30,314 bases of DNA from a virus: the IMG/VR virus record IMGVR_UViG_3300009163_000124, positions 1-30,314 of that record, one strand, 5' to 3'. The notes beneath the pieces were generated by a model, which searched no databases, was not told where the DNA came from, and saw only the letters and a program-made list of their open reading frames with translations. This document shows positions 8,290 through 28,201 of the stretch, piece by piece (position 1 is the first letter of the stretch; every line of letters begins with the position of its first letter). Position numbers and translations under genes: made by a program.

Positions 8290-8664
8290 ATGACAACGTT
8301 CCTTGGATTTAACACGCAAGATCAATTTAAAAAGTTTACGCTAGTGGACTACAATTTAATCAGACGAGATCTGCTAAACGCATTTAATATACGTCAAGGG
8401 CAGTTGCCCGGGCGCCCAGGATATGGAACAATAATTTGGGATTTCATGTTTGAGAGTCAAGATCAAACAACACAACAATCAATAATCAACGAAGTAAAAC
8501 GTGTGGCCAGCGGTGATCCTAGATTGTTTGTGTCGGATATACAATGCTATCCTCAAGAAAATGGATTTTTGTTATCACTAGAAGTGCAAGTTGTTCCATC
8601 AACTGATGTGCAACGATTAGGGGTGTTCTTTGATCAAGCACAACGCACAGCCAACTATGTATAA
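8290..8664 (+). CDS. 25: Baseplate wedge protein gp25 (GPW/gp25 family)
   Basis: This 124-residue protein has the usual length and pattern of the gp25/GpW family, which shares a fold with lysozymes but is structural. Visible features are the N-terminal YNLIRRDLLNAFNIRQGQ, the highly typical LPGRPGYGTIIWDFMFE turn-strand, a helix with QSIINEVKRVA, and the C-terminal strand FLLSLEVQVVP. In T4 and related contractile systems gp25 forms the wedge core with gp6 and gp53 and begins sheath polymerisation. It lies nine bases after the previous stop and directly before gp6, the conserved partner. No good Shine-Dalgarno is seen; see the promoter motif at 8277. Confidence 0.88.
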   Translation: MTTFLGFNTQDQFKKFTLVDYNLIRRDLLNAFNIRQGQLPGRPGYGTIIWDFMFESQDQTTQQSIINEVKRVASGDPRLFVSDIQCYPQENGFLLSLEVQVVPSTDVQRLGVFFDQAQRTANYV

Positions 8665-11600: not shown

Positions 11601-12104
11601 ACAGGAACAGTAATCAAACCCACTATGCCTACTCTAGATGAGCTTAACACAGCATACCAAGGATTGAACAATTATAAAATGATTAGTGACAATGTGGTAC
11701 TTAATTCAGTGACATTTAAACCATTATTTGGAGCCAAGGCTGCAGAAAATTTACGTGCCACAGTCAAAGTTATTCGTGCAGCAAATTCTACTGCTAGCGA
11801 AAGCGAAATTAAGAACCTAGTGGTAAGTTATATGAATGATTATTTTACTATAGACAAGTGGAACTTTGGCGATACGTTTTACTTTTCGGAACTAGCGGCC
11901 TACTTACATTCTAACATGGGTGGGATTGTTAGTTCGGTGGTACTTGTGCCACTAAACTCTCAAAAGAGTTTTGGTGACCTGTACGAAATTCGTTCAGCAC
12001 CAAATGAGATTTTTGTCAATGCAGCAACCGTGAATTCCGTAGAGGTAATTACAGCATTGACTAGTACAAATATTAAAACAGCACCCGGAAGTGGAGTAAT
12101 TTAA
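8697..12104 (+). CDS. 6: Baseplate wedge protein gp6-like, enlarged (1135 aa)
   Basis: The N-terminus is typical of gp6 of T4-like phages: residues 41-110 contain DYLRQYYPETFNDY, FIALLDVVAFMGQAMAFRND and SVVRLANLVSYTPKR. The last is the helical core that packs against gp25 and gp7. Residues near 335-460 keep a baseplate-J-like pattern (TLTFGDGVFSEIPVG; ETLAEIKQRAPARYYTQNRM; NGEDYNNF). The C-terminal region (YFSELAAYLHSNMGGIVSSV) also fits the gp6/GpJ family. T4 gp6 is 660 residues, so about 470 extra residues, mainly beta-rich, have been added in the middle and C-terminal half. It is preceded by gp25 and overlaps the giant gene by one base (TAATG), consistent with gp6-gp7 wedge assembly. The product call is secure; the extra domains are unassigned. 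Confidence 0.85.
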   Translation: MARTTRQTAIFGVEDWKRIYQTYREADFQSYDFETLRKSFIDYLRQYYPETFNDYIESSEFIALLDVVAFMGQAMAFRNDLNTRENYLDTAERRDSVVRLANLVSYTPKRNTAAQGFLKVFSIQTTENVKDFNGIDLSNITVNWNDPTNPNWQEQFTTILNAAFVNSQRVGRPGNRQTLSGIETSEYGINLVPGYLPVVPYTATVDGVTMPFEATSSTSVGEDYIYEPSPVANGIFNLLFRNDRQGFASENTGYFFFFKQGTLQNVDFNLAEKVSNRTVNVNVEGINNLDRWLFQLDTVGNVQYEWNYVNNVYAAAAEQLAPDQRKLFSVTSRTNDQITLTFGDGVFSEIPVGLFRCYVRASNGLQYIINPVEMQSVVLPVSYISRTGQLETLVFTCGITNPVSNAQPRETLAEIKQRAPARYYTQNRMVNGEDYNNFPFTQYNSIIKSKALNRSSIGTSRYLDLVDNTGKYSSTNTFSSDGALWEENQLPSFLFSWLNRNDIADVIGNQVQPRLARNEFIQFCNANLIRPSLLPLNVEWHQSTTLLGETTGYFNYINGGPVPIGAYSSNNTQYIQVSSLVKFAAPLGYFFDAENKLKVGTPIGADERYTLWASPLRVINDGANQGLGNFTNGIGPVTLNTFVPTGAVAVQVIPVIITNLPTSFTTQIAEQIVLYRNFGLGYDNLNQEWYLITSTNLAENAEFSLDNAQSTAGTNSDASWLVQFTTDGSTYTVTTRALVYSFGSVLQTRFFFESNQRIYDSRTDTVISDFVNVLKTNSQPDTNYPLYGDIKLSIIGQPVESDGYVDDYQVIVSYADVNNDGIADDPDFFNEIVNPAYSPNTKFVFFEMTVDFDNLQRYLLVEPGRVDFRYATLNNIEIYKFQYVDGQIFYAYQDKEFYQLSVSTSGVSSLTNVTSSWIARTGRQSLAFQYRHNSPLTSRIDPGTTNIIDLYVVTQAYYTAYQNWIRDTTGTVIKPTMPTLDELNTAYQGLNNYKMISDNVVLNSVTFKPLFGAKAAENLRATVKVIRAANSTASESEIKNLVVSYMNDYFTIDKWNFGDTFYFSELAAYLHSNMGGIVSSVVLVPLNSQKSFGDLYEIRSAPNEIFVNAATVNSVEVITALTSTNIKTAPGSGVI

Positions 12105-15100
12105 TGGCAAACACAAGAACAGTTGATTTTTTACCGCCAATTTTTCAAACCAAAACAAACCAACAATTTTTATCAGCAACTCTTGATCAATTAGTACAAG
12201 AGCCAACTTTTAAACAGGCACAAGGGTTTGTTGGACGAAAAGTTGGCCCCGGAGTTAATCCCAATGACAAATATGTTGTTGAATTAGATGCAACTCGTGC
12301 AAACTATCAACTTGAGCCTGGTGTTATTAGTTTGGTTCCAGATACTGATAGAATTTCGGATGCTATTACATATCCAGGAATAACGGATGCTCTTGCAATC
12401 CAAGGCGCCAATGTTAGCAAAGCTGATCGTTTGTATACTAGTGATTATTATACTTGGGATCCCTTCATTAATTTTGATAAGTTTGTTAACTATAGTCAAT
12501 ACTATTGGTTACCAGGCGGCCCCATACCAGTCGACGTTAGTGCAACTGTGGTGCCATTGACTGATTCTTTTGATGTTACTATCGATGGTGACGATTATTT
12601 GTTTAATGGTGTTCCTGGAAAAGATCCAGTTATTAATTTAGTACGTGGCGGCAACTATACATTTAATATCTCCAGTGTTAACAACAGCTTCTGGATACAG
12701 TCTACTCCCGGAGTAAACGGAACATTGCCTTGGGCTCCAAACATTAGCAGTCGAGATGTATTTGGTGTAATTAATAACGGTGAAAATGTTGGAACAGTAA
12801 CATTTAATGTGCCTTTGAAAACAGCACAAGAATTTTACTACACCCTGGATGAAATACAACCAGTTGATCTGATTAGCAGTATTAACTTTGACCAAATCAA
12901 TAATATATACTTGTCAACGTTCCTTGAAAATTACGGTGGCATTGACGGCATTTCATCGTTGGATAACCGAACTGTAATTTTTACCACCCCCGACGATCTT
13001 GACATGGGTGGCTGGTACAAAACAACTCAATTTGACCCATTAGTTAGAACTACTCCTAACCAAGTTTCTGAAACTCAAAGTTATGATGTAGATAATCAAA
13101 ACTATGACATCTATCCTTACGAAACATTGAGTGTTACTATTGTCAGCGGAAGCCCAGACCCACAAGATGGTCTACCTGGGTCGTTTGACAGTTTACCTTA
13201 CGATTTAGTTACTCCAATTGCTACACAAGCAGAACGTTACAGTGTATGGTTAATTCAATATCAGTATGATAATGATGGGTTGCCTATTCTTACGTTAACT
13301 CAGCAACGTAGTGTGAACAATCTTGAAAAGTTTAATATTTTATTTGGCAATCAATGGTCGGGCACACAATGGTACAAGGATGCTGAAGGTAGCTTCCAAA
13401 AGATTCCGTTACTCACAGCAATTCAAGATGTGTTGTGGTACCAAGATGGAACTAATCCAGAAATTTTTGGTAGAATTAGTCTCATTGAGCAAGTACAAGT
13501 TTCTGTACTAGAAATTGATAAAGATATTGTTGGAAAGAAAAATTATGTAAGCCCCAACGGCGTAACATTTACCAACAATATGATTGTACAATTCCGCGGT
13601 AATGTGGTCCCTACCAGTTACGAGAACAACACTTACTATGTTGCAGGAGTGGGCACAGCCATTAAATTGTTACCCACTGTTAATTATATTACTCCACAGA
13701 CATATACTCAAAGTGCAACACTGCCCTACGACTCAACAGGGTATGATGTTGGCAATTTTGATGCCAACTTGAATCAACCAGAAGTACCAGATTATATAAC
13801 AATTGCGTTAGATAGTCCAGATTTAAATGCATGGACTTGTTCCAATCGTTGGTTCCATATTGATGTAATCAATGCCAGTGCTGCATACAATAATACTGTT
13901 CCTGTACTTGACAATCGCTTCCGAGCAAAACGCCCGGTTCTAGAGTATCGCGGTGGTACACGATTGTTTAAGATGGGCACCGAAGCCAAACAGCCTGTTA
14001 ATATTATTGATTTTAAATCTTCAGACGCTCTTAGCAACATCAATGGATCTCTAGGATATGCAGTAGACGGATACCCATTTATTTCTGGTACTCGTGTGAT
14101 TTTTGCAGCAGATGTTGATCCTCAGGTACGTAATAAAATCTATCAAGTTGAGTTTATATCACCTAGTTCTGATGGAAGTTCAATCTTAGAACCTTGTATC
14201 AATCTTGTGCCTGCAGCTGATGCAGACGTATTGATTGATCAGTGTGTGGTTTGTCTAAGTGGGAACACATTACAAGGCAAGAACTTTTACTATGATGGTG
14301 TTGAATGGATAGAAGCACAACAAAAAACCAGCGTCAATCAACCACCGTTGTTTGACGTATTTGATTCCAAAGGAATTAGTTTTGGTAATAAAGTTGCATA
14401 TCCAAGCAGCACATTTGTTGGTAATAAATTGTTTAGCTATGCTGTAGGAACAGGTGTCGAAGATACTGTACTTGGACTCCCACTTGCTTATCTGTCATTG
14501 AATAACGTTGGTGATATTGTATTTGACAATAATTTATACACAGAAACTTTTATTCACGTTGACAATAACGTCAGTACAGAACTAGCAGTAAGCACTGGAT
14601 TTGTACGTCAATATGTTGATCGTACTGCATTTGTTCGAGAAATTGGATGGCAACCAGCAGTTACTCAGAGTCAAGACTACCAACAGTTCCAATTTGAATT
14701 CCAATTTGATACTCCTCTGGTATTGGATATTCCTGTAACACAATCAACCACAATACCAACTGTAAAAGTGTTTGTTGGTACAGTATTCCAAGCTCCGTCC
14801 ACTTACACTGTGACTATTGATGGTAATTGTACCTATATTGGTTTGTCCAACACAGTTGGTGTTCCTGGAGATGTTATCGAAGTGTTGGTTCTAAGTGACC
14901 AAGCAAGTACTACAGGGTTTTATCAAGTTCCTATTAACTTAGAGAATAATCCATTCAACGCTAACTCTGAGAGTTTTACACTAGGAACCATTCGTACTCA
15001 TTACGAAACAATTGCTGAAAACTTATTAACCTTTAACGGTAAAATTAACGGTGCAAACAACACAAGAGATCTTGGAAATATTATACCGTATGGTTTGAAT

Positions 15101-18100
15101 ATTTTACAACAAAGTTCTCCAATGACCTTGGCGGGTTATTTCTTGAGAAAACAAGAATATCCAATTTTTCAAAGCTTGACCTACAACAGTCGTGAATACG
15201 AAAAATTCAAGGCACAATTTTTAAATACCGCAATTTCCAATGACTACGAAGGATTGTCTATTGCTGAAATTGTAACATCAGTAATTGGTGAGATTACACT
15301 GGGACGAATTGAAACTAATCCATTTTACTGGAGTGACATGTTGCCGGCCAGTACTGTGTATACACAGACAGCAACCACAATTGGTCCTATAGGTATTAAT
15401 GTATTTGATACAATTCAAGTTTATAATTTTACTTCAGCAAACTATCTTGGATTGTTGGTGTACTTAAATGATGTGCTATTGACCCGCGGGTATGATTACA
15501 CTGTGGCAATTGATGCTCCTCGATTGACAGTCACTGTGCCGTTGCAAGTTGGTGATGTTGTTACAATTCAAGAGTTTACTAGTACCGCTGGCAACTTTGT
15601 GCCAAATACTCCAACCAAAATGGGATTGTATCCTGCTTATAAACCAGAAATCTATCTTGATACAACTTATGTAGATCCTATTTTTATGATCCGCGGACAC
15701 GACGGGTCTCTTACAGTTGCATTTAGTGATTTCCGAGATCAGTTGTTGTTGGAATTTGAAACTAGAATTTACAACAACTTGAAACTGGACGGTAATCCAG
15801 TTCCGTTAGTCGAAGCAGACGTTGTGCCAGGCCAATTTAGAACAACTGATTATAGTTTGGCTGAGACTAATCAGATGTTGAGCCAAGATTTTCTAAGCTG
15901 GGTAGGATGGAATAAACTTGATTATAAAGCACAAGATTACATTGTTAGCAATGCGTTTACCTACAACTACTCAACTGCTAGTAACAAACTAGACAATACT
16001 CAACCGTTGCCGGTTGGTGCATGGAGAGGTATCTACAATTACTTCTATGATACACAATATCCAGATTCTCGTCCGTGGGAAATGCTAGGATTTTCTAAAA
16101 TGCCCGCTTGGTGGGAAGATGAATATGGGCCAGCACCGTACACTTCTGGCAACTTAGTGCTGTGGGACGATCTTGCCGCCGGGCTAGTTCGTGATCCAAT
16201 AGCACCTTATATATTAACTAAGTATCGACGCCCTGAACTTACACAAGTACTTCCTGTGGGCAGCGAAGGTGCATTGTTGAGTCCATTAGAATCGGTAGTA
16301 GGCAACTACGATTCCCTTGATTTCCGCAAGAGCTGGGTAGCAGGAGATGACGCCCCTGTTGAAAATGCATGGAAAACTTCTAGTGCATATCCATTTGCTG
16401 TGATGAGATTGTTGGCTTTAACTCGTCCTGCAGAATTTTTCAGCTTGTTTGTTGATCGCGATCTTTACAAATTTGATGTAGAACTTGATCAATATCTTTA
16501 CAATGGTCGTTATAGATTGGATGCAAACGGCGTTCAAGTTTATGGTGATGGAGTAAGCAAGGCTAGTTACATAAACTGGATTGTGGATTTTAACCGCCAG
16601 ACCGGTATTAACTCAACCAACGCATTAACTGCTGATTTGTCTAACTTAGATGTGCGTTTGTGTTATCGATTGGCAGCATTCACTGGAAAAAATCTGTTGG
16701 ATTTGTATACTGAAAAATCTAGCCCTAACAGTTTAAACTCTAGTTTATTGTTACCAGATGAAAGCTATAATTTATTGTTCTACAAAAACGTACCATTTGA
16801 CACATTGGTATACAGTAGTGTAATTGTTCAAAGAACCATCAACGGATATGCAGTATATGGGTATGGAACCACTTCCCCTTATTTTAATATTTTAATTAGC
16901 CGTTCCAATGGATTAACCGCTGCAATTTCCGCAGGCGGCACAACTGTGTCTGTGCCAATTGAGTATACAAACAATGTAGCACAAGTTCCATACGGTTATG
17001 TATTTTCAAATGAAGTTGTTGTTGCTGACTTCTTGTTAAGCTATGGCAAATTACTAGAAAAACAAGGCATGATATTCACAACTCAAGAGAATGGTTATAT
17101 TCTTGACTGGAATCAGATGGTTAGTGAATTCTTGTATTGGAGTAATCAAGGTTGGGGACCAGGCAACGTTATTAATCTTAACCCTAATGCAAATAATCTT
17201 AAAATTGATAGACCTTACTCTATCGTAGACAGCATACAGTTACAGACCGCTGACAACATGGTGTTGGATCAAAATCGCACACAATTAGATACAAAGAATT
17301 TAGTGATTGATCGAATTGATAATTCGTTCTCTATTACCAGTTTAACTGACCAAACAATTAGTTATTTGAACATAAAATTTGTTAGCTTTGAAAACATGGT
17401 TGTTCTTGACAATCGAAGTATCTTTGCTGATTTAATTTACAATCCAACAACCGGTGCTCGACAAAATCGTATCAAACTTGTTGGTACATTAACTGATAAT
17501 TGGAACGGACAATTGGATGCACCTGGCTTTATTCTTAATCAGGACAACATCAAAGAATGGCAACCAAATCGCAAGTATGCTCGCGGCGAAATAGTCAAAT
17601 ACAAAAATTATTATTACAGTGCAATTGATATTGTACAACCGGCCACAATGTTTAACTTCAGCGAGTGGACCAAGAGTGATTATACCAAAATCCAACAAGG
17701 ATTGTTGCCTAACTTGCCTAACAAGAGCAACCAATTGGCCAATAGTTATGATATCTACAAAGCTAATCTTGAAACAGATCAAGATTTGTTTAGTTTTGGA
17801 TTAATTGGATTCCGCCCACGTCAATACATGGCTGCATTGAATCTTGACGACATCAGTCAAGTTAATCTTTATAGACAATTTTTAGGTACAAAAGGTACGT
17901 TGGCTGCAACTGATATTTTTAAATTTGCTGATCTTGGACGTGGCCCTGCTGAATACAATATCTATGAAAATTGGGCTGTACAACGTTCAGTCTACGGAGC
18001 AAATGCTAACCGTAGCTATTACGAGTTGCAACTGAATGAAGCGTTGTTGCAATCTAATCCTAGCCTTATTCAAGTTACTATACCGGCGGGTGAATCTAGC

Positions 18101-21100
18101 CTTGATGTTGATCTAGCAGATCAAGAAGTTTATCTTCAAGACGTATGGAATGAAAGTTATAAGTTAACATCTCCTGACATTTTAACAACAATTTATAATG
18201 TACCAAAAGAAAATGCATTGCCAGATGCTGGCTATGTTGATGTTGATGATGCTGATATCACAGTGTTTGATATTGCAGACCCTTCGGCATTAAATGCAAA
18301 TCTTGATATAATTGGATACGGAACCACAGTATGGGTAGCCAAAGTCAACGACTACGATTGGAACATATATCGAACTACTAATATTCCAGGCAATCTAGTA
18401 TTGGTTAGCAATAATCTCGATGGCACAAGTCTTCTTATTTTTAACAAACAACACGGACTGTCTGCCGGTGATGTCATTGTTATTAAATATTTCTCAACCG
18501 ATATCAACGGTGTGTACACTGTAAAGAGTGTTCCGGCTCTTGACACTTTGATTATTAACTTTAGTTTTATTGTGCCTTCTCAACTATCCGCCACAGGAGT
18601 TGGAATAGTATTTAAACTTCAGACTCAACGTGTAAAACAAGCCAGTGACATTATCAATTTACCGTATTCGCGTAGTTTATTACCTGGAGCAAAAGTTTGG
18701 GTTGATAACAACGGATCAGACCATTGGCAAGTTCTTGAAAAACAAGACACACTAATACCAGGGCAAGGTTTTGTAGCACGTAATCCATTCTCAAACAGCG
18801 GATTTGGCTCTAGTATTGCCCAAAGCTACGATAACTTGTTTGCGTTAGTTGGTGCTCCTAATATTGTCGCAACAGGTGGAGTATATACCTATGTCAAAAC
18901 AGATACAAACCCATTTGATGAAAATAGTTTAATTACCATAAACGCAATTGATACATTATTGTATGGTCATAGCGTAGCTGTTGGATATCAAGACTGGATG
19001 GTAGCAGGAGCTCCTGCCAGCGGAAATTCACGAGGTTATGCAACTGTGATATACCGTCCACCTGGATTGCCATCATTTAATGTTACTACCTTGTTAACTG
19101 CCCCAGACATCAGTGATTTGCAGTACTTTGCTGAATTTGGGTATAGTGTTGACATGAGCCAAGACGAGCGTTGGCTTTATATTGGCGCACCTGGTGTAAA
19201 TGCAGTTTATGCCTATGGTAGAGTTGATGTTGAGCCACAAGCGGTAGAATACATTACTGATGGTTTCACTAATAGTTTTAATTACAGCAATTACATTGTG
19301 ATTGATCAACTACCAATTTTGGATCCAGTCAACAATCAACAACTAGTAGTAGTATTGAACAATCAACTGTTGACTCACATAGTTGATTATTATCTTACAG
19401 CGACAGATGTGATATTGTCTAACATACCATTATCTGGCCAGAAGCTAGAAATTTCTCGAAGAACTTTGTTGTCACTCGTTGGAGATGGTAGTAGTAGTCT
19501 CTATTCATTGAATGAATATTTCTATAGTCTAAGCAATAACATTTACTCTTTCAAGATTACAGTAAATGGTGTGCTACAACGTCCCAACTTTGATTATGAA
19601 TATGACGACGACTTTAGCTCTGGTGCTCAAGATAGAGATGTGATTTTCAACATTGCACCTCCGGTAGACGCCACGATTGAATTTTTCACAACCACATATT
19701 TTACCAAAGTCGCTAAAATCACCGCGCCTGCAAGCACTACTGAGTCAGCAAGATTTGGGCATAGTGTAACTTGTTCTACCGACGGTCGACAAGTTACCAT
19801 TGGAGCTCCTGGAAACGCAGTTAATACCGGCAAAGTATTTGTTTACGATAGAGCGGTGCAGACATTTATTGTTACTAATTCATCACAATTTAGCTATACT
19901 GTCGATGGCGGGACATTGTTTAATCCTACATCAGTGATACTCAACAACGTATTTTTAGTCAATACCGAAGGTAACCTGAATGGAACATTCAGTGTGTCGG
20001 GTGGAACAGTCACGCTAGATACTGATCTTATGGTTGGTGATGTATTGGAAATTGGAATAAATCAATTTAGTTTGATACAATCATTCGTAGCCGACGTTCC
20101 TGGTCTAGGATATCGATATGGTGCTGCATTAGATTCTTGCACAAACAATTGCAGTTTATATGTAGGATCTCCCGACACCACTATCATGCAAGATTCGATT
20201 ACTCTATTGCAAAGTGCTGGTATAGTAGAACGTTTGGTTAATCAAAGCCGTGTGTACGGTGGTACCACTTCTTTGTATGCATATCCTGTGCTAGTGGCCG
20301 GAGATACATTGAGAATTAATGATGTAATAATTGCTGTTCCAAATTCACCTAACAACACTGTGTTAGGGCTAGTCGAAGCAATCAACTCATCTATTATTCC
20401 TAACGTTACAGCATACTATTGGCCAGCAGGATCTGCTAATGCTGGAAGAATGACATTGACAGTTACTAATATTGATGCAAGCATACAATTCAAAAGATTA
20501 TCAGTACTACCTGGTCTAGTTGGTACAGCATTTGATGACTTGGGATTTGATACTTTTGTATACACACAAACAATCCAAAGTCCTATTCCTCTTTCTTTTG
20601 CTAAATTTGGTTCAGCAGTTAATATTGATTCTCACGCAGACAATCTCACAGTTGGTTCACCAGGCGCCACTGTTTACAAAGCCAACACCTTTGATGCTGG
20701 TTACACTTATTTTGATGGACACGCTACAAAATTTAACGGCCCAGTAATTCAGAGTGGTGCAGTTTATACATTTGATTACTTGCCTAGCTCAACTGATAGT
20801 ATAAACAACCCAGGTAAGTTTGCATTTGGGCAACAGGTATATGATAATCAAGTACGTGCTCTTGATCAGTATGGCACCTCAGTTAGTTATATAAACAATG
20901 TATTGCTTGTGGGCTCACCCGGTTCTGAACCAATGGTAAGAGCTGGTAGATTTGTGACAGGAACTCAGTACACAATTTATTATATAGGCTCTACAGATTT
21001 TACATTGATTGGTGCTAGTTTTAATATTGTAGGAACTACGTTCACTGCTACAGGCCCAGGCCAAGGAACCGGCAAGGCCAGCGTTACAGCATATGTTAAT

Positions 21101-24100
21101 TCTGGTCGAATCAGTGTGTTTAATAATCCAACTAATTCTCAAGCATGGACTATACTACGTGAACAAAAACCAGTAGTTGATGTTAGCCTGATCAATTCAA
21201 TATTCATGTATGATAGAATCACCAGTGCAAGAACTGAGTTCTTTGACTACATTGACCCATTGCAAGGCAAGATCCTGGGTGTGGCACAACAAAACATCAA
21301 TTATATTGGTGCAGTTGACATGGCCTTTTACAATGCAGGGACAGTTAACAATATTGGTAAAAATTGGGGACAAGAACATCTTGGACAAATTTGGTGGGAC
21401 ACGAATACAGTAAGATTTATTAATCCCAATCAAGATGATATCACATACGCCAGCCGTCGATGGAGTCAGGTGTTCCCGGGCAGTACAGTAGATGTATATC
21501 AATGGGTTGCTAGTTCTGTTCCTCCTGCTAATTATACAGAAGAAGGTTCTCCTAAATCTATCAGCAGCTATTGTATTTCATCTAATGTAAATGATCAAGG
21601 CTACATCGAAACGATGTATTATTTCTGGGTTAAAGGAATTTCCTCAGTTGCTAGTACATTGGGCAAAACATTAAGTGCAACTGGTATTGCACAGTACATT
21701 GAATATCCTCGCAGTAGTGGTATTCCGTATGTGGCGTTCATTAATGCCAGCACTACCGCTCTTTATAATGCTGTAGATTTAATTTCTGCACAGGACACTA
21801 TCCTTAGCATTGAGTTTGATCGCCAATACACAAATGATAATGTACACACTCAGTATGATTTGATCCCACAAGATCGTGCAGATGGCTTCTTGAGTGATAA
21901 CTTGTATCGTAAGTTACAAGATTCATTCTGTGGCACAAATCTTGTTGGTGGCAAAGTACCAGATATTACACTAAGTCCAGCAAATCGTTATGGTGTACAG
22001 TTCCGACCGCGTCAAAGCATGTTTGCCAACAGATTTACTGCTTTGCAAAATTACTTGACTCATGCCAACAACATACTTGCACAGTTTCCTATTGTGGAAT
22101 CTCGAAGTTTTAGTCTGTTAAACAGTAGAGAACCCGAGCCAAAATCAGTCAGCGGAGAATGGGATAAACGTGTGTCAGACCTTGAAGAGCTGAGCTATCA
22201 AAATTTCCGCGAAGTTCCAGTAGGCTATCGTTATTTGGTCAACAGTGACTCACGCCAGAATGGTCTATGGACCATCTACAAAACCACAGCCAAACAAACA
22301 TTTGAGTCACTGGCATTGATTCGAATTCAAAACTATGACACTCGTCGGTACTGGCAGTATATCAACTGGTATCAAGTTGGGTACAATTCTAGCTCACAAA
22401 TTGTGGCCAAAGTTTCTACGTATTCTGCTTTGTCTACATTAGTTGGTTCTAACATTTTATTCCCAGGCGCCAGTGTAAAAGTCACTAGCAACTCACAAGG
22501 TAAATGGGAAATTTATCAATACATTCCCAATAATATCACCGGCACAATGGAGTGGATACGTGTGGGATTGCAAGATGGTACCATTGAGTTCAAAGCAGAA
22601 TTGTGGAACTATGAACTAGGACGTTTTGGTTATGATGTTGAAGTGTTTGATGCACAATATTTTGACCAAGAGCCTGTGATTGAAACACGAAAAATTATAC
22701 AAGCTATTAATGAAGAATTGTTTATTGGAGATCTGTTGATTGAACGTAACCGTGCATTGGTATTGATGTTTAATTATATTCTAAGTGAATTTCAAGCACC
22801 AGAATGGTTAGTAAAAACCAGTTTGATTGATGTCAATCACAAGATACGTCAATTGGTACCATATCAAATTTATAGACCTGATAACCAAGACTTTGTGGTT
22901 GATTATCTCAAAGAGGTTAAGCCATATCACGTTCAGATTAGAGAAATCAATTTAGTTTATGATGGATTTGACAGTTATCAAGGCACAATGACCGACTTTG
23001 ATATCTCAGCATACTACGATACTGATTTAGAAATTCCTCAATTTGTAAGCCCAGTATTAACACCATACACTGCTAGTACTGCTACAGGAACAGGTACTTC
23101 CAATAGCAATAGTGATATTGCTGCAGATAATCCTATTTGGACTCAGCAACCTTGGAGCGATTGGTACAGTAACTATTTGTTAGAAATTCAAAGCGTTATT
23201 GTAGTAAATGGTGGTACAGGATATTCTATTGCTCCTAGGGTAGTAGTTACAGGTACCTGCATTACTCCGGCGGTTATGGTGGCACAAGTTAACAGTGCAG
23301 GTAAAGTAATCAGAATTGATGTAATTGATCCAGGTTCTGGATATAGTACAACTGCTATTATTGACTTGATTGAGGGTAACGGTATCGGAGCAACTGCAAT
23401 TGCGGTAATGGGCAATGGACTGACCCGTAATATTAAAACCACAATAAAGTATGACCGTTATGAATATACTTCAAACATTGTAGAGTGGCAAGCCAACGTA
23501 ACTTATACTGATGGAACCCAAGTTCGACATCTTGATCGAGTATGGTCTGCTGACGGAACTGTTAACACAGAAACATTTGATCCATTTGACTGGGTTGCAG
23601 TCAGTGCAGAAAGCCTGAGCGGTGTTAATCGTACACAAGGATACTATGCACCAACTGCAAACCAGCCCGGATTAGATTTACCGTTACTAATTGATGGCCT
23701 TGACTATCCTGGAGTACAAGTTAGTGCTCCAACATTTGATCAGGACACTGGGTATGATGTAGGAAACTTTGATATAAATCCGTTTGATAACATCAGTTAT
23801 GGTCCAGAAGGTAAACCAACATACGATCCGGCTATATTAGATGCAATCTACGAAAGCAGCTTCTTGGATCCGTACTTAGGAACTCGTGCAATTGATGTCA
23901 ATGTGTCGGGCAGCGAATTCATTAACGAATATTCAAGTTATGCGCCAGAAGAACTTGTACCAGGCGCAGAATTTGATACTTTGGATTTCCGCGTGTACAC
24001 ACAACCTGGAATTGACTGGGACGAAAATGGCCACGGATTTGAACTTAAAATTGTCAAGTGGGAATTTGATTCAATCAACGCAACCGGTTGCAGCTTTGTT

Positions 24101-25996
24101 GGAATAATACCTAATCCAGTTCAAATACGTGTTACTAATCAAACACAAGGACGAGACCTTGCTCTTGATATCGACTACTCAGTGAATTGGAACAGTGAAT
24201 CAGTTACACTACTCACTAGAATTGAAGCACCACCTGCCAACAACGGCGACATATTGGTAATCACAGCATTTGGAATTGGCGGCGGCAATCAGCTGTATAA
24301 AGATAGTTTCAACGGAGCCAAGGTTGGTAATTCTATCACTATTCCAGTTGAATATAATCAAATTGATGAAATGGTTATTTTTGTTAACCAAGTGTTAATA
24401 AATGATTACAGTTATGTTGCTGACAATATTAACACTACCGTTACATTTGATACAACGTACCAATTGAGTGACAACATTAATATCACAGCACTGGGCATAA
24501 CTGATGGCAGCTCAGCTTACTCTTGGTCAACTGCATTGACTCAGTATTTTATCAGCATAGGAGAGCTAAATTACGTTCTTGACAACAGCATGCAAGGAAC
24601 AAATCCTGCTAATCTTGTTGTTGAGAAAAATGGAATTCGTGCTCGCCCGCCAGAGGGTGCTGAATATATTGCCGATGGCTCCACAGCTTACAATCTACCA
24701 AATCGCGGCGGATATAGCCAAAGCCTCATAGCAGACAACGATGTTGAAGTTTGGATCAACAATACTCCACAAACATTGTATGTGGACTTTACAATCGAAC
24801 CTTATTCAGTATACGATGATTGTCGAGAAGTGATATTTTCGTTTATTCCGCCAACTGGTGCAACAATTCTAATCAGTGTGAGTACCAAAGCTGATTATAT
24901 ACTACTAAGCAACGACGGAGTAAACACAGTGTCTTGGCGTACTACTGGTGGATTCTATCCATCCTACGGTGATGTTGTTTCAGTCACAAGCTGGAATGAT
25001 ACAGCCCAGCAAGATATTGCAACACTTGTTTTCCAAGGTCCTATTACTCAAGGTATTGTTATAACTGAACCTTATGATAGTACCAACTACGATATTGGGG
25101 ACTATGATCAAACAATTGGCGCTCAAGTGACTGTAAATGATTTTCAATTGGGACGCATCATTGATGACCCTACAAGATTGTGGGTTACTCTAAATGGTCG
25201 ACGAAAGTTTTATGGCGCTGATTTTACATTGTCTGGTGAACAATTAGTACTAACTGGTCCAACTATTAGTGCAATTGATGTATTGGCAGTGACAGAATTT
25301 ACTAATTCTATTGTGCCGCAGCCAATGGAATTCCGTATTTTCCAAGACATGCGTCAGATACAAGCAACGTATAGAATGACTCAAGGTACAACAACATTCT
25401 TGGTTCAAGATCTGAATGATACCGATGATGTAATCTATGTTGATGATGCAAGCGCATTGGCAGCTCCTGTATTAGCTGATAATATTTGGGGTATTTTAAT
25501 AGTCAATGGTGAACGCATCATGTATCGTGAACGTGATATTGCTACCAATACAGTTAGCAGTTTACGTCGCGGCACAGCTGGTACAGCAATTGCATCGCAT
25601 TCAGTTGCTGCAATTGTTTATAATTTGAATCGTGATAATTTAGCACCGTCCGAATACCAGGATCATTATGTAACAGACTATACTCTAGCAAATGGATCTG
25701 AAGTGACATTTATTGCCAATGATATTAATTTAGTGGCCAGTACAAAATCTGGATTTGATATAGCCAACACAATTCAAGTCTACGTTGGTGGTACCTTGCA
25801 AACTAATGGTTATACAGTAGATAGTGTGGCTCCTGCTACAATAACTTTTGATACTGCACCAACAGAAGGGTATCAAGTTGCGATACAAGTTCGCCAGGGA
25901 TTAAGCTGGTATCATCCTGGTATCGGCACTGCAAGTGACGGTGTTCCGTTACAACTCACAGATACCCTAGCGGCACAGTTTTTTAGAGGTCAATAA
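12104..25996 (+). CDS. Giant 4630-aa wedge/adhesin protein (gp7 position, beta-propeller)
   Basis: A single uninterrupted frame encodes about 0.5 MDa. Residues 1-150 (RTVDFLPPIFQT; LYTSDYYTWDPFINFDKF; YYWLPGGP) and 560-640 (SNRWFHIDVINAS; RAKRPVLEYRGG) look like conserved wedge-type sequence, and the place after gp6 is that of T4 gp7 (1032 residues). Residues 938-1050 contain GLNILQQSSPMTLAGYFLRK. Two CBM5/12-like modules lie near 1819-1860 and 3795-3835. Seven FG-GAP-like blades lie between 2233 and 2950, with inserts. Residues about 3050-3670 form another large conserved-looking block (GQIWWDTNTVRF; FRPRQSMFANRF; VKPYHVQIREINLVYDG). From about 3990 to 4600 small beta-modules repeat. It ends in GVPLQLTDTLAAQFFRGQ. 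GGAG eight bases before the ATG is a good ribosome-binding site. A structural baseplate role is likely; receptor or glycan binding is inferred. Confidence 0.6.
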   Translation: MANTRTVDFLPPIFQTKTNQQFLSATLDQLVQEPTFKQAQGFVGRKVGPGVNPNDKYVVELDATRANYQLEPGVISLVPDTDRISDAITYPGITDALAIQGANVSKADRLYTSDYYTWDPFINFDKFVNYSQYYWLPGGPIPVDVSATVVPLTDSFDVTIDGDDYLFNGVPGKDPVINLVRGGNYTFNISSVNNSFWIQSTPGVNGTLPWAPNISSRDVFGVINNGENVGTVTFNVPLKTAQEFYYTLDEIQPVDLISSINFDQINNIYLSTFLENYGGIDGISSLDNRTVIFTTPDDLDMGGWYKTTQFDPLVRTTPNQVSETQSYDVDNQNYDIYPYETLSVTIVSGSPDPQDGLPGSFDSLPYDLVTPIATQAERYSVWLIQYQYDNDGLPILTLTQQRSVNNLEKFNILFGNQWSGTQWYKDAEGSFQKIPLLTAIQDVLWYQDGTNPEIFGRISLIEQVQVSVLEIDKDIVGKKNYVSPNGVTFTNNMIVQFRGNVVPTSYENNTYYVAGVGTAIKLLPTVNYITPQTYTQSATLPYDSTGYDVGNFDANLNQPEVPDYITIALDSPDLNAWTCSNRWFHIDVINASAAYNNTVPVLDNRFRAKRPVLEYRGGTRLFKMGTEAKQPVNIIDFKSSDALSNINGSLGYAVDGYPFISGTRVIFAADVDPQVRNKIYQVEFISPSSDGSSILEPCINLVPAADADVLIDQCVVCLSGNTLQGKNFYYDGVEWIEAQQKTSVNQPPLFDVFDSKGISFGNKVAYPSSTFVGNKLFSYAVGTGVEDTVLGLPLAYLSLNNVGDIVFDNNLYTETFIHVDNNVSTELAVSTGFVRQYVDRTAFVREIGWQPAVTQSQDYQQFQFEFQFDTPLVLDIPVTQSTTIPTVKVFVGTVFQAPSTYTVTIDGNCTYIGLSNTVGVPGDVIEVLVLSDQASTTGFYQVPINLENNPFNANSESFTLGTIRTHYETIAENLLTFNGKINGANNTRDLGNIIPYGLNILQQSSPMTLAGYFLRKQEYPIFQSLTYNSREYEKFKAQFLNTAISNDYEGLSIAEIVTSVIGEITLGRIETNPFYWSDMLPASTVYTQTATTIGPIGINVFDTIQVYNFTSANYLGLLVYLNDVLLTRGYDYTVAIDAPRLTVTVPLQVGDVVTIQEFTSTAGNFVPNTPTKMGLYPAYKPEIYLDTTYVDPIFMIRGHDGSLTVAFSDFRDQLLLEFETRIYNNLKLDGNPVPLVEADVVPGQFRTTDYSLAETNQMLSQDFLSWVGWNKLDYKAQDYIVSNAFTYNYSTASNKLDNTQPLPVGAWRGIYNYFYDTQYPDSRPWEMLGFSKMPAWWEDEYGPAPYTSGNLVLWDDLAAGLVRDPIAPYILTKYRRPELTQVLPVGSEGALLSPLESVVGNYDSLDFRKSWVAGDDAPVENAWKTSSAYPFAVMRLLALTRPAEFFSLFVDRDLYKFDVELDQYLYNGRYRLDANGVQVYGDGVSKASYINWIVDFNRQTGINSTNALTADLSNLDVRLCYRLAAFTGKNLLDLYTEKSSPNSLNSSLLLPDESYNLLFYKNVPFDTLVYSSVIVQRTINGYAVYGYGTTSPYFNILISRSNGLTAAISAGGTTVSVPIEYTNNVAQVPYGYVFSNEVVVADFLLSYGKLLEKQGMIFTTQENGYILDWNQMVSEFLYWSNQGWGPGNVINLNPNANNLKIDRPYSIVDSIQLQTADNMVLDQNRTQLDTKNLVIDRIDNSFSITSLTDQTISYLNIKFVSFENMVVLDNRSIFADLIYNPTTGARQNRIKLVGTLTDNWNGQLDAPGFILNQDNIKEWQPNRKYARGEIVKYKNYYYSAIDIVQPATMFNFSEWTKSDYTKIQQGLLPNLPNKSNQLANSYDIYKANLETDQDLFSFGLIGFRPRQYMAALNLDDISQVNLYRQFLGTKGTLAATDIFKFADLGRGPAEYNIYENWAVQRSVYGANANRSYYELQLNEALLQSNPSLIQVTIPAGESSLDVDLADQEVYLQDVWNESYKLTSPDILTTIYNVPKENALPDAGYVDVDDADITVFDIADPSALNANLDIIGYGTTVWVAKVNDYDWNIYRTTNIPGNLVLVSNNLDGTSLLIFNKQHGLSAGDVIVIKYFSTDINGVYTVKSVPALDTLIINFSFIVPSQLSATGVGIVFKLQTQRVKQASDIINLPYSRSLLPGAKVWVDNNGSDHWQVLEKQDTLIPGQGFVARNPFSNSGFGSSIAQSYDNLFALVGAPNIVATGGVYTYVKTDTNPFDENSLITINAIDTLLYGHSVAVGYQDWMVAGAPASGNSRGYATVIYRPPGLPSFNVTTLLTAPDISDLQYFAEFGYSVDMSQDERWLYIGAPGVNAVYAYGRVDVEPQAVEYITDGFTNSFNYSNYIVIDQLPILDPVNNQQLVVVLNNQLLTHIVDYYLTATDVILSNIPLSGQKLEISRRTLLSLVGDGSSSLYSLNEYFYSLSNNIYSFKITVNGVLQRPNFDYEYDDDFSSGAQDRDVIFNIAPPVDATIEFFTTTYFTKVAKITAPASTTESARFGHSVTCSTDGRQVTIGAPGNAVNTGKVFVYDRAVQTFIVTNSSQFSYTVDGGTLFNPTSVILNNVFLVNTEGNLNGTFSVSGGTVTLDTDLMVGDVLEIGINQFSLIQSFVADVPGLGYRYGAALDSCTNNCSLYVGSPDTTIMQDSITLLQSAGIVERLVNQSRVYGGTTSLYAYPVLVAGDTLRINDVIIAVPNSPNNTVLGLVEAINSSIIPNVTAYYWPAGSANAGRMTLTVTNIDASIQFKRLSVLPGLVGTAFDDLGFDTFVYTQTIQSPIPLSFAKFGSAVNIDSHADNLTVGSPGATVYKANTFDAGYTYFDGHATKFNGPVIQSGAVYTFDYLPSSTDSINNPGKFAFGQQVYDNQVRALDQYGTSVSYINNVLLVGSPGSEPMVRAGRFVTGTQYTIYYIGSTDFTLIGASFNIVGTTFTATGPGQGTGKASVTAYVNSGRISVFNNPTNSQAWTILREQKPVVDVSLINSIFMYDRITSARTEFFDYIDPLQGKILGVAQQNINYIGAVDMAFYNAGTVNNIGKNWGQEHLGQIWWDTNTVRFINPNQDDITYASRRWSQVFPGSTVDVYQWVASSVPPANYTEEGSPKSISSYCISSNVNDQGYIETMYYFWVKGISSVASTLGKTLSATGIAQYIEYPRSSGIPYVAFINASTTALYNAVDLISAQDTILSIEFDRQYTNDNVHTQYDLIPQDRADGFLSDNLYRKLQDSFCGTNLVGGKVPDITLSPANRYGVQFRPRQSMFANRFTALQNYLTHANNILAQFPIVESRSFSLLNSREPEPKSVSGEWDKRVSDLEELSYQNFREVPVGYRYLVNSDSRQNGLWTIYKTTAKQTFESLALIRIQNYDTRRYWQYINWYQVGYNSSSQIVAKVSTYSALSTLVGSNILFPGASVKVTSNSQGKWEIYQYIPNNITGTMEWIRVGLQDGTIEFKAELWNYELGRFGYDVEVFDAQYFDQEPVIETRKIIQAINEELFIGDLLIERNRALVLMFNYILSEFQAPEWLVKTSLIDVNHKIRQLVPYQIYRPDNQDFVVDYLKEVKPYHVQIREINLVYDGFDSYQGTMTDFDISAYYDTDLEIPQFVSPVLTPYTASTATGTGTSNSNSDIAADNPIWTQQPWSDWYSNYLLEIQSVIVVNGGTGYSIAPRVVVTGTCITPAVMVAQVNSAGKVIRIDVIDPGSGYSTTAIIDLIEGNGIGATAIAVMGNGLTRNIKTTIKYDRYEYTSNIVEWQANVTYTDGTQVRHLDRVWSADGTVNTETFDPFDWVAVSAESLSGVNRTQGYYAPTANQPGLDLPLLIDGLDYPGVQVSAPTFDQDTGYDVGNFDINPFDNISYGPEGKPTYDPAILDAIYESSFLDPYLGTRAIDVNVSGSEFINEYSSYAPEELVPGAEFDTLDFRVYTQPGIDWDENGHGFELKIVKWEFDSINATGCSFVGIIPNPVQIRVTNQTQGRDLALDIDYSVNWNSESVTLLTRIEAPPANNGDILVITAFGIGGGNQLYKDSFNGAKVGNSITIPVEYNQIDEMVIFVNQVLINDYSYVADNINTTVTFDTTYQLSDNINITALGITDGSSAYSWSTALTQYFISIGELNYVLDNSMQGTNPANLVVEKNGIRARPPEGAEYIADGSTAYNLPNRGGYSQSLIADNDVEVWINNTPQTLYVDFTIEPYSVYDDCREVIFSFIPPTGATILISVSTKADYILLSNDGVNTVSWRTTGGFYPSYGDVVSVTSWNDTAQQDIATLVFQGPITQGIVITEPYDSTNYDIGDYDQTIGAQVTVNDFQLGRIIDDPTRLWVTLNGRRKFYGADFTLSGEQLVLTGPTISAIDVLAVTEFTNSIVPQPMEFRIFQDMRQIQATYRMTQGTTTFLVQDLNDTDDVIYVDDASALAAPVLADNIWGILIVNGERIMYRERDIATNTVSSLRRGTAGTAIASHSVAAIVYNLNRDNLAPSEYQDHYVTDYTLANGSEVTFIANDINLVASTKSGFDIANTIQVYVGGTLQTNGYTVDSVAPATITFDTAPTEGYQVAIQVRQGLSWYHPGIGTASDGVPLQLTDTLAAQFFRGQ
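17546..17690 (+). other. CBM5/12-like module 1 within the giant protein
   Basis: Residues about 1815-1862 read EWQPNRKYARGEIVKYKNYY, then YSAIDIV, and end in a tryptophan (EWTKSDY). The pattern W-x(4)-Y-x(2)-G-x(2)-V-x-Y-x(3)-Y-x-A ... W is that of small chitin/cellulose-binding modules of CBM families 5 and 12. The aromatic residues expected for sugar stacking are present. The match is by eye, and a short motif can mislead. Confidence 0.5.
18800..20980 (+). repeat. Seven FG-GAP-like beta-propeller blades
   Basis: Seven blade motifs of the form F/Y-G-x-S/A-V/I ... L-x-V/I-G-A/S-P occur in the giant protein. They start at about residues 2233 (FGSSIAQSYDNLFALVGAP), 2287 (YGHSVAVGYQDWMVAGAP), 2344 (FGYSVDMSQDERWLYIGAPG), 2550 (FGHSVTCSTDGRQVTIGAPG), 2672 (YGAALDSCTNNCSLYVGSP), 2834 (FGSAVNIDSHADNLTVGSPG) and 2923 (YGTSVSYINNVLLVGSPG). 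Blades 1-3 are 54-57 residues apart. Later spacings of 206, 122, 162 and 89 residues show insertions between blades. The form resembles the FG-GAP_2 type without an obvious calcium loop. Seven is the number that closes an integrin-like propeller. Confidence 0.75.
20300..20500 (+). other. Flagellin-IN-like insert inside the propeller region
   Basis: Residues about 2733-2800 read LRINDVIIAVPNSPNNTVLG, then LVEAINSSIIPNVTAYYW, then GRMTLTVTNIDASIQF. This strand, helix with an AIN motif, V-T-A strand and closing 'R-x-T-L-T' strand follow the pattern of the flagellin hook-IN domain. It sits between blades 5 and 6. Recognition is by eye only. Confidence 0.4.
23480..23615 (+). other. CBM5/12-like module 2 within the giant protein
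   Basis: Residues about 3793-3835 read VEWQANVTYTDGTQVRHLDR, then VWSADG, then FDPFDWVAVS. They keep the W ... Y-x(2)-G-x(2)-V ... W spacing of module 1, but the second Tyr-x-Ala is VWSA here. It follows directly on a Gly-rich segment (NGGTGYSIAPRVVV) near residue 3700. Confidence 0.45.
24100..25910 (+). repeat. C-terminal array of small beta-modules in the giant protein
   Basis: At least five diverged modules of about 60-80 residues follow one another. Each has a strand with an Asn-x-x-x-hydrophobic turn, then D-Y/F-x-V/I, then a strand ending in a 'P-x-x-G-D/A-x-I/L' turn. Examples are VIFVNQVLINDYSYVAD, VEVWINNTPQTLYVDFTIEP, LWVTLNGRRKFYGADFTLSG and IQVYVGGTLQTNGYTVD. Further copies occur near 14752, 15406, 19244, 19472 and 19862, the last three between propeller blades. 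Near 25381-25620 lies a different module ending in SSLRRGTAGTAIASH. The arrangement suggests growth by internal duplication. Confidence 0.6.
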
Positions 25997-26012: not shown

Positions 26013-26171
26013 ATGAATGAAGAAAATACATCCGAACAAGAGCTTGTAAAACCGCAAGCTCAGGCTGCAGAACCACGCCGCCCAAACGAACGAGGTTCTA
26101 TTTCGGTCTCTGGGTTTGTTAAGATTTTTGATCCAAAAACTCAAGAAGTATTTGTGGAGACCCAAACATGA
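26013..26171 (+). CDS. Small 52-aa protein, partial paralogue of the next gene's N-terminus
   Basis: An ATG at 26013 opens 52 codons ending in a TGA that overlaps the next ATG (ATGA). AAGGT at 25999-26003 is a reasonable ribosome-binding site. Residues 1-28 are acidic then basic and probably disordered (NEENTSEQE; EPRRPNERG). Residues 29-50 read SISVSGFVKIFDPKTQEVFV. This aligns with GFLKIHDPNSGEVFV at the start of the following 201-residue protein: 10 of 17 residues are identical from GF to the acidic residue after VFV. It could be a short assembly partner, a mini-gene, or a remnant of a duplicated gene. The overlap and the filled gap argue that it is translated. No function is assigned. Confidence 0.7.
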   Translation: MNEENTSEQELVKPQAQAAEPRRPNERGSISVSGFVKIFDPKTQEVFVETQT

Positions 26172-26773
26172 TTATTCCAGGCTTTGTAAAAGTCGAAGGC
26201 TTTTTAAAAATTCACGATCCTAATTCGGGAGAAGTGTTTGTTGACAAGAAAAATGCTATTCATTATGAAAATATGAGTATCAGTCTTGCTGAAACTCTAG
26301 CCCACCAAACACAGGGTTGGATTTACGAAATGGCATTTGGAAACGGCGGCAGTTCTGTAGACCCTACAGGTGTTATCACTTATTTGCCGCCCAACACAAC
26401 CGGTCAAAATGCTGATTTATACAACGAAACTTACTTTAAAGTAGTTGACGGTAATAGTGCTGCAAATACAGATACGATCAATAACAATCTAACTGTGTTG
26501 CATACTACAGGAAAAGTGTATACTGATATTCTAGTAACTTGCTTATTAGACTACGGTGAGCCACCGGGCCAGCAAGCATTTGATAATTCAACCAACTTTA
26601 ACGGTGAGTATGTGTTTGACGAACTAGGACTAAAATCCTGGACTGGATCAACTACAGCACCAAGATTAATTACTCACGTGATTTTTCACCCTGTGCAAAA
26701 AAGCTTGAATCGACAGATTCAAATTGATTACACTGTGCGTATACAAACACTCACCAACTTGAGTGCAGCATAA
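26168..26773 (+). CDS. Virion structural protein, 201 aa (baseplate/fibre-associated)
   Basis: The N-terminus reads GFVKVEGFLKIHDPNSGEVF, then NAIHYENMSISLAETLAH. A conserved-looking core follows (MAFGNGGSSVDPTG, VITYLPPN, LYNETYFKVVDG), and the C-terminal half has VFDELGLKSW and THVIFHPVQKSLNRQIQIDY. I recognise this as a protein type found in tail regions of T4-like phages of aquatic bacteria, without an established T4 gene name. GGAG at 26157-26160 serves as ribosome-binding site, and the ATGA overlap with the 52-residue gene suggests coupling. The stop codon lies inside an ATAAATA motif. No enzyme motif is visible; a role as a fibre adaptor or peripheral baseplate protein is inferred from the following fibre-like genes. 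Confidence 0.6.
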   Translation: MIIPGFVKVEGFLKIHDPNSGEVFVDKKNAIHYENMSISLAETLAHQTQGWIYEMAFGNGGSSVDPTGVITYLPPNTTGQNADLYNETYFKVVDGNSAANTDTINNNLTVLHTTGKVYTDILVTCLLDYGEPPGQQAFDNSTNFNGEYVFDELGLKSWTGSTTAPRLITHVIFHPVQKSLNRQIQIDYTVRIQTLTNLSAA

Positions 26774-26824: not shown

Positions 26825-28201
26825 ATGTCATATACAATTAATTTAACTAACGGTAGCATCTTTGCAGTAGTAGCAGATGGTACTGTTAACACCAGTTCAA
26901 GCATGATCCTAGTAGGTAAAAACTACGCTGGATACGGTGAATTTTTAGATGAAAACTTCATCCACTTGTTGGAAAATGGGGCAAATACTTCACCTCCTGG
27001 TGCACCTTTAACAGGCCAATTATGGTGGGACTCAACATCTGGCACACTAAAAGCTTATAATGGAACAACATTTAAAGTTGTAGGTGGTGCAACTGCATCG
27101 TCAAGTGCTCCGAGCAGCAACGTTGCTGGTGATCTCTGGTATGATTCTGTTAATGCACAGTTAAAAGTCTACAGTGGTTCTACTTGGATCTTGGTTGGCC
27201 CTGCATTCACTGCAGGAACAGGTACTACTGGTGCTATTGTTGATACTATTACTGACACAAGTATTGTTAGTCACGTTGTTATTAAATTGTATGTAGAAAA
27301 CCAAGTAGTTGGTATTGTCAGCAAAGATGCTACTTTTACTCCACAAACTCCCATCAGTGGATTTACTACAGTACGTCCAGGTATTACATTGGCTACTACC
27401 ATTAGTGGTGTTACTCAATTGTTCCAAGGTACTGCAACCGATTCGCAATTGCTTGACGGCTTAGACTCTGCAGATTTCTTGAGTAGTATTGCCAACGACA
27501 CAACCAGTGGCACATTGGGTATATTAAACAACGGTGGTTTGAGCGTGGGTTCCAACAGTGATGCTCGTGTTAGCGTTACTGGTACTGATGTATATTTTGC
27601 TAACCAAACACAAAACGGCAACATTGTCCTGCAAGTTAATACAGGTGGTGTCACAACCACAGTTGGTACAATTTACGGTTCAAATAGTGTTGTTAGCTTT
27701 GGTAATGCACTATCTGTTGGCAGTATTGCTCACAGTTCAGCCAATGGTGTTGGTAACATTGGTTCTAGCTCTAGCTACTTTAACCAAGTGTTTGCCACTG
27801 CTACTACAGCACTGTATGCTGACGTTGCAGAAAGATTTGCTTCTGACATTGAGTACGCACCAGGTACTGTGGTTGAACTAGGCGGAAGTGCTGAAATTAC
27901 CAAAGTAACAGATGATGCTAGCGATCGTGTGTTTGGTGTTATTAGTACACGACCTGCATTCACAATGAACGGCGGCGCTGGCTCAGACATAACTCACCCT
28001 GCAGTTGCTATGACTGGTCGTGTACCTGTTCAAGTCAAGGGTGTAGTAAACAAAGGTGATCGATTAATTAGTGCTGGAAACGGAATGGCCAGAGCTGCAC
28101 TAAAAGGCGAAGCCACAGCATTCAACGTTATTGGTCGTGCATTAACTAACAAACTTGACAGTGACATTGGCACAGTCGAAGCTATTGTAACAATCAAATA
28201 A
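26825..28201 (+). CDS. Tail fibre-like protein with Peptidase_G2/IMC-like C-terminus
   Basis: This is a 458-residue protein. The N-terminus (INLTNGSIFAVVADGTVN; GKNYAGYGEFLDENFIHLL) resembles phage fibre attachment regions. Two related units start at residues 64 and 102 (GQLWWDSTSGTLKAYNG and GDLWYDSVNAQLKVYSG). A LDGLDSADFL motif at about 210 is common in phage fibres, followed by Gly/Ser/Val-rich shaft-like sequence. From residue 331 (YADVAERF) the sequence has PGTVVELGG, VFGVISTRPAF, VAMTGRVPVQVKG and FNVIGRAL. This is the pattern of C-terminal chaperone-like or autoproteolytic domains grouped as Peptidase_G2/IMC. I did not verify a catalytic residue, so self-cleavage is unproven. It ends in tandem stops TAA-TAG. 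Confidence 0.65.
   Translation: MSYTINLTNGSIFAVVADGTVNTSSSMILVGKNYAGYGEFLDENFIHLLENGANTSPPGAPLTGQLWWDSTSGTLKAYNGTTFKVVGGATASSSAPSSNVAGDLWYDSVNAQLKVYSGSTWILVGPAFTAGTGTTGAIVDTITDTSIVSHVVIKLYVENQVVGIVSKDATFTPQTPISGFTTVRPGITLATTISGVTQLFQGTATDSQLLDGLDSADFLSSIANDTTSGTLGILNNGGLSVGSNSDARVSVTGTDVYFANQTQNGNIVLQVNTGGVTTTVGTIYGSNSVVSFGNALSVGSIAHSSANGVGNIGSSSSYFNQVFATATTALYADVAERFASDIEYAPGTVVELGGSAEITKVTDDASDRVFGVISTRPAFTMNGGAGSDITHPAVAMTGRVPVQVKGVVNKGDRLISAGNGMARAALKGEATAFNVIGRALTNKLDSDIGTVEAIVTIK

Follow-up and report, generated by a model that had tools for sequence, protein, structure and literature searches.

Integrins bind their ligands through heads built as FG-GAP propellers. In the integrin alpha chain (alphaM, alphaL, alphaIIb, and alphaV; e.g., 9t3y, 5e6s, and 3nid), the N-terminal propeller consists of seven FG-GAP blades. 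FG-GAP proteins of the PF14312 family are also known from giant DNA viruses (prasinovirus, mimivirus-like, and Pithovirus) and from a few phage entries. Jumbo phages, for their part, are known to carry a family of giant proteins, i.e., phrog_10938-type virion proteins of 3,300–4,600 aa, which in cultured relatives bear only the labels "virion structural protein" or "hypothetical protein." Here, we describe a giant protein of this family in which a predicted integrin-type FG-GAP propeller appears to occupy a single slot of the scaffold.

The window, i.e., the whole 30,314-nt IMG/VR fragment of viral DNA that was analyzed, carries on its plus strand genes for a gp53-position baseplate wedge subunit (2252–2551; 99 aa; phrog_7145, E 3.7e-19), a gp5-like baseplate hub/OB protein (5429–6949; phrog_13211, E 1.2e-31; weak Phage_base_V), a gp25-like baseplate wedge protein (8290–8664; PF04965, E 2e-6; phrog_43), and a gp6-like baseplate wedge subunit (8697–12104; 1,135 aa; phrog_10646, E 6.4e-278; T4-gp6-type phrog_219, E 6.6e-24). 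Directly after gp6, on the same strand, lies a giant ORF of 4,630 aa (12104–25996; phrog_10938, E 1.1e-303), whose features described below all share its orientation. The order gp53, gp5, gp25, gp6, giant gene is common to the window and to jumbo phages of the RaK2/GAP32/121Q/PA5oct/Atu_ph07 type. BLASTP blocks showed the giant ORF to be collinear with the post-gp6 giant proteins of PA5oct, Atu_ph07, RaK2, GAP32, and 121Q, and likewise with those of SCTP-2, Phosso, and Vibrio phage 2.275.O, which also follow gp6. Collinear homology to these jumbo-phage proteins spans window aa 1–2120 and 3003–3640, including the conserved scaffold that follows the propeller (aa 3015–3640; 21146–23023; collinear with RaK2, GAP32, PA5oct, and Atu_ph07). 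By sequence homology, the giant ORF is thus assigned to the RaK2/PA5oct-type giant virion protein family (phrog_10938).

The PA5oct homologue is present in the virion according to the ESI-MS/MS note in its record, and the phAPEC6 proteome table lists gp245 (381.88 kDa, 17 peptides) beside the baseplate wedge protein gp244 (PMC7247149). Judged from its size and the adjoining wedge gene, gp245 would be the phAPEC6 counterpart of the giant protein, and virion presence of the window's protein is carried over, by homology, from PA5oct and phAPEC6. In what we regard, taken as a whole, as a somewhat probable explanation, the giant ORF encodes a virion scaffold protein in the baseplate region of a jumbo myovirus. 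Close relatives diverge most at aa 3981–4400 (24044–25303) of the giant protein, a segment that varies more than the propeller and is partly missing in L001. Directly 3' of the giant ORF lies a 201-aa gene (26168–26773; phrog_11259, E 1.4e-71); the giant genes of L001–L003, SCTP-2, and Phosso are likewise followed by a gene of about this size, and one is found close after that of PA5oct. Fiber-like genes with weak tail-fiber and structural PHROG matches are situated just downstream (26825–28201). Near the start of the window, a 328-aa open frame on the minus strand (662–1648) runs opposite a low-complexity structural gene (33–2252) and most likely arose mechanically from codon composition.

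T4 encodes gp7 directly after gp6, and the preliminary description had likened the giant product to this wedge protein. The likeness stands as regards position, but profile comparison detected no relation to gp7 itself. The giant family was divided into seven to nine overlapping pieces and compared, profile to profile, with six gp7 sequences; the hhalign probability was ≤0.4% on every piece, whereas in the gp6 control the same method aligned the gp6 family with T4 gp6 over 308 columns (E 9e-4). Since the control works and gp7 gives no profile relation, "gp7" is a positional statement only. T4 gp7 also differs in length (1,032 aa vs. 4,630 aa here), and on these profile comparisons it was rejected as a homologue, the giant protein being instead a virion protein of the RaK2/PA5oct type. 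Comparison of the giant family with gp8, gp9, gp10, and gp11 gave nothing convincing (best gp10, probability 3.2%). Fold searches with a low-confidence scaffold model of the relative L090, whose slot is empty (pLDDT 65, pTM 0.43), returned only an E1-FCCH-like barrel and a CBM-like patch, with no gp7 chain among the matches listed.

We then examined the repeats themselves. Seven FG-x-S-V...GAP motif pairs had been reported in the giant ORF, and all seven were recovered with the pattern FG-x-[SA]-[VIL]...G[AS]P, between aa 2234 and 2939, as the sole matches in the protein. Placed by pattern match and conservation, they read FGSSI...LVGAP in blade 1 (aa 2234–2252; 18803–18859), YGHSV...VAGAP in blade 2 (aa 2287–2304; 18962–19015), FGYSV...YIGAP in blade 3 (aa 2345–2363; 19136–19192), FGHSV...TIGAP in blade 4 (aa 2551–2569; 19754–19810), YGAAL...YVGSP in blade 5 (aa 2672–2690; 20117–20173), FGSAV...TVGSP in blade 6 (aa 2835–2853; 20606–20662), and YGTSV...LVGSP in blade 7 (aa 2923–2939; 20870–20920). 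When the protein was shuffled 2,000 times, matches averaged 0.0005 per shuffle, with a maximum of 1. The expected match to Pfam FG-GAP_2 (PF14312; E 1.1e-8) held for the whole protein (35.5 bits) and for the region (46.3 bits), both above the gathering cut-off of 23, but not for every repeat, as just three to four scored individually; the second half of the region alone reached 19.3 bits, just under the cut-off. The count of seven therefore rests on motif, conservation, and structure, the glycine of the FG being kept at all seven positions in 58 of the 64 homologues. The repeats are unevenly spaced: blades 1, 2, and 3 lie close together, as do 6 and 7, and large domains separate 3 from 4, 4 from 5, and 5 from 6.

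Blade 5 has, in its A-B loop, a C-x3-C pair, C2679/C2683 (20138–20152), at the site where integrin blades carry their calcium loops. Each of the two cysteines is present in 61 of the 64 homologues, while the whole giant protein contains 14 cysteines only. The pair is possibly a disulfide or metal site.

To assess the fold, an AlphaFold2 model of aa 2060–3060 was built from an alignment of 64 related segments (mean pLDDT 87.8, pTM 0.86 for the propeller model). The earlier proposal of a seven-bladed propeller had named structure prediction as its test, and the prediction yielded an integrin-type ring. In Foldseek, integrin alpha chains ranked first, and integrins made up 50 of the 50 matches listed in the structural alignment. 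Model residues 156–959 superposed on the alphaM head with a Z of 41.1 over 357 residues (2.6 Å, 18% identity), and the integrin alpha heads together gave 350–380 residues, 2.5–3.0 Å, Z 37–41, and 17–20% identity. The aligned range, aa 2215–3018, covers the complete integrin head and is predicted to form a seven-bladed integrin-type FG-GAP propeller (18746–21157). The span of 18800–20980 given in the preliminary description thus covers the motifs, the domain itself being slightly longer. No relative turned up when solved structures were searched by sequence, either with the whole protein or with the propeller; only fold comparison reaches the integrins. Moreover, there were no calcium-type DxDxD(G) loops in any blade (aa 2215–3018) and no RGD anywhere in the giant protein, which makes this an FG-GAP propeller rather than an integrin. 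Integrin-type thigh/calf domains and a membrane anchor are not found after the ring, where the phage scaffold follows.

The irregular repeat spacing and the three to four individually scoring repeats might also be expected of chance FG/GAP-like peptides without a propeller, or of an assembly chimera. Against this, shuffles give essentially none, the model matches integrins at a Z of ~41, and 88 other loci have a large insert in this position, nearly all of those scanned matching FG-GAP_2. We rejected this reading as having practically no chance of being correct.

Comparison of the propeller-bearing protein with its relatives revealed a feature absent from the preliminary description. The conserved scaffold stops near aa 2215 and restarts near aa 3015, and the propeller is, as the alignments read, an insert at one fixed scaffold point, between aa 2214 and 3019. 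Counted from aa 2050, this slot measures ~150 aa in RaK2, GAP32, and 121Q and ~210 aa in PA5oct and Vibrio phage 2.275.O, and no FG-GAP motif was found in the slots of these phages. Among the IMG/VR loci with both flanks, 88 of 89 (a few duplicates included) have a slot of 732–1,124 aa, and FG-GAP_2 matched 41 of the 42 members scanned. Pfam gave no match on the slot of L098 even though that slot is full, and one or a few members are therefore too diverged to call. The exception among the 89 loci is L090, in which a short linker takes the place of the ring; two further distinct relatives, L123 and L125, are alike. On a scaffold tree computed without the insert (by a quick method, with several long branches), the propeller requires two changes: a gain ahead of the node that separates L006 from all others (support 99) and a loss in the L090 clade. 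The slot holds a CBM_5_12-bearing insert (E 1.3e-8) in L126 and an E1_FCCH-bearing insert in L129. In Atu_ph07, the slot (L012, 17157–21599) contains ~1,350 aa of other repeats, and that of Phosso is similar.

A scan of genome contigs yielded six MAG-binned contigs matching the giant protein at 30–35% identity, none of them with FG-GAP motifs. Jumbo-phage giant-protein genes on MAG-binned contigs (L126–L131) are assigned to Neomarinimicrobiota, Endomicrobia, Puniceicoccaceae, and Gammaproteobacteria; these are likely mis-binned phage contigs, or else a hint of the host.

Close relatives differ chiefly in the domains between the blades: where the core is ~83% identical, the blades are 71% identical and the blade 3–4 insert 53%. 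This insert (aa 2375–2531; 19226–19696), housed in blade 3's C-D hairpin, is the most variable of all: homologues have 188–409 aa from motif 3 to motif 4, and it is DUF2460-like in 5 of 42. By sequence, it comes after strand C (VYAYGRV) and ahead of strand D (YFTKVAKITAP). Integrin C-D loops lie on the face opposite the ligand. A further inserted domain, recognized from the alignment and the AlphaFold2 model, separates the motifs of blades 4 and 5 (aa 2591–2654; 19874–20065), and a third, flagellin-hook-like domain (PF07196 in 2 of 42 homologues) separates those of blades 5 and 6 (aa 2701–2825; 20204–20578). In ~22 of 89 members, though not in the window, the blade 5–6 domain hosts an extra CBM5/12-like module by a pattern test (best CBM_5_12 Pfam E 0.0018; most inter-blade CBM_5_12 matches fall below the cut-off). 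This module has come or gone between pairs whose cores are 91–97% identical: L073 and L080, with a core identity of 97%, reach only 45% in the blade 5–6 domain because one of them has the extra module, and L032 and L038 show the same difference. In L006, a CBM_5_12 match (E 2.5e-8) follows the GAP with which strand B of a blade ends and precedes strand C (GKIYIY); from this strand order, it would sit on the ligand-side face. No CBM_5_12 match exceeded the cut-off in window aa 2060–3060; relatives L006 and L126 have matches above it. Finally, the B-C loop of blade 7 contains a ~55-aa phage module (aa 2943–2996; 20930–21091) modeled with low confidence, which shows 54.5% identity to a section of a virion protein from cyanophage S-TIM54 and which few relatives share. 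It was the only match of the propeller to cultured phages at the DNA level or as a close protein match, and looks like a mobile phage module.

Outside the propeller, a small E1-FCCH-like beta-barrel precedes the ring (~aa 2090–2177; 18371–18634), as judged from the fold of the equivalent region of L090. Searched via that region, the barrel fold matched VIA at Z 7.6–10.6, and Pfam E1_FCCH was found in the relative L129. The barrel fold of the L090 region also occurs in the LKA1 tailspike and in siphophage tail or connector proteins. Further upstream in the scaffold lies a CBM_5_12-like module (aa 1818–1840; 17555–17623) with an E-value of 1.2e-4, just under the Pfam cut-off; the equivalent part of L090 matches a chain of the phage Milano receptor-binding complex (Z 8.0, 45 aa).

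What, then, might the ring do? We lean toward a role as a host-surface recognition head that binds a receptor or glycans, a reading with which the CBM-like modules on the propeller would plausibly fit. The closed ring would be plugged into the scaffold at one fixed point and, because its first and last strands are predicted from the fold to adjoin, could stand in for a short linker and leave the scaffold undisturbed. It would then project from each baseplate wedge as a multivalent surface-recognition head, whose loops and grafted small domains may bind envelope glycans or proteins of the host during adsorption; in several relatives, the grafted domains resemble chitin-type carbohydrate-binding modules. 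We counted in favor of recognition the CBM_5_12 domain in the L006 blade, the turnover of CBM5/12-like modules in close pairs, the CBM_5_12 in the L126 slot, and the lower identity of the blades and of the blade 3–4 insert than of the core. Counted against it were that the propeller is outpaced by aa 3981–4400, which are more variable, that the L090/L123/L125 clade and all cultured relatives examined do without a propeller, that most CBM_5_12 matches between blades score under the Pfam cut-off, and that CBM5/12-like modules also occur in structural, non-receptor phage parts, including the scaffold itself at aa 1818–1840.

Propellers are common protein-docking platforms, and the ring might instead be a structural domain that never touches the host but docks or stabilizes wedge proteins, fibers, or the product of 26168–26773. 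The location of the giant ORF within the wedge gene cluster, the good conservation of the blades with invariant residues on all seven, and the conservation of the next gene across phages (phrog_11259, E 1.4e-71) are consistent with docking. However, one clade lost the propeller and kept the scaffold that follows it, cultured jumbo phages assemble without a propeller, and the turnover of inter-blade domains between near-identical phages would not be expected of a fixed internal interface, and we regard docking as unlikely. Integrin alpha propellers pair with beta subunits through one face, so the fold match to the alpha propeller, together with the fiber-like genes just downstream (26825–28201), might also point to a socket that binds other phage adhesins rather than to a part that itself binds the receptor. 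This we rate as a long shot, since family searches found no beta-subunit-like partner in the neighboring genes and propeller-free relatives carry fibers too. Returning to surface recognition, we would suggest, tentatively and with more doubt than confidence, that the gp6-adjacent giant protein contains a slot dedicated to the exchange of surface-recognition modules, a slot that in one large uncultured lineage is taken up by an integrin-alpha-like propeller displaying interchangeable glycan-binding modules on each wedge. If true, host recognition would be built into the wedge scaffold and not carried only by separate fibers.

No paper in the literature searched links FG-GAP with phage baseplates or jumbo phages, and papers on RaK2, phAPEC6, and jumbo-phage comparisons nowhere mention a propeller in the giant protein. 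An integrin-head-like ring in one slot of the giant protein, widespread in uncultured phages, was not found in the papers searched. It provides a name and a predicted fold for ~800 residues in proteins that rank among the largest known from phages and points to a second site, besides the fibers, where jumbo phages may meet their hosts. The slot, being full, empty, or otherwise filled, amounts to a natural experiment in the modular evolution of the contractile tail.

Set beside known systems, the locus shares elements with several. A BFVD fold search retrieved many viral FG-GAP proteins, including "FG-GAP repeat [uncultured Caudovirales phage]" A0A6J5S3H5, and paired the propeller with a separate Atu_ph07 "hemagglutinin" (A0A2L0UZX4); the nearest match was an uncharacterized uncultured-phage protein (A0A6J5L8L4, E 6e-30), which may belong to the same family. 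These viral FG-GAP proteins are separate or unannotated, whereas the ring described here is inserted into a conserved scaffold of the baseplate region. In giant proteins of the RaK2/GAP32/121Q/PA5oct/Atu_ph07 type, conversely, that scaffold is present without an FG-GAP ring, the slot being short or otherwise filled. The endosialidase tailspikes of K1F, phi92, and EndoNF have a beta-barrel with the fold of the barrel next to the ring (L090 region; Z 7.5–8.8, 79–81 aa), but their own propeller is different and enzymatic, and the likeness is confined to the neighboring barrel. With integrins, the likeness lies in the predicted ring and its seven FG-GAP blades, and extends to the carriage of inserted domains, as integrins have an alphaI domain inserted in the propeller; the large inserts of the phage propeller sit elsewhere, by sequence mostly in C-D hairpins. 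The integrin alpha propeller stands at the N-terminus of a membrane receptor, whereas the phage ring lies within a structural protein, whose scaffold continues after it.
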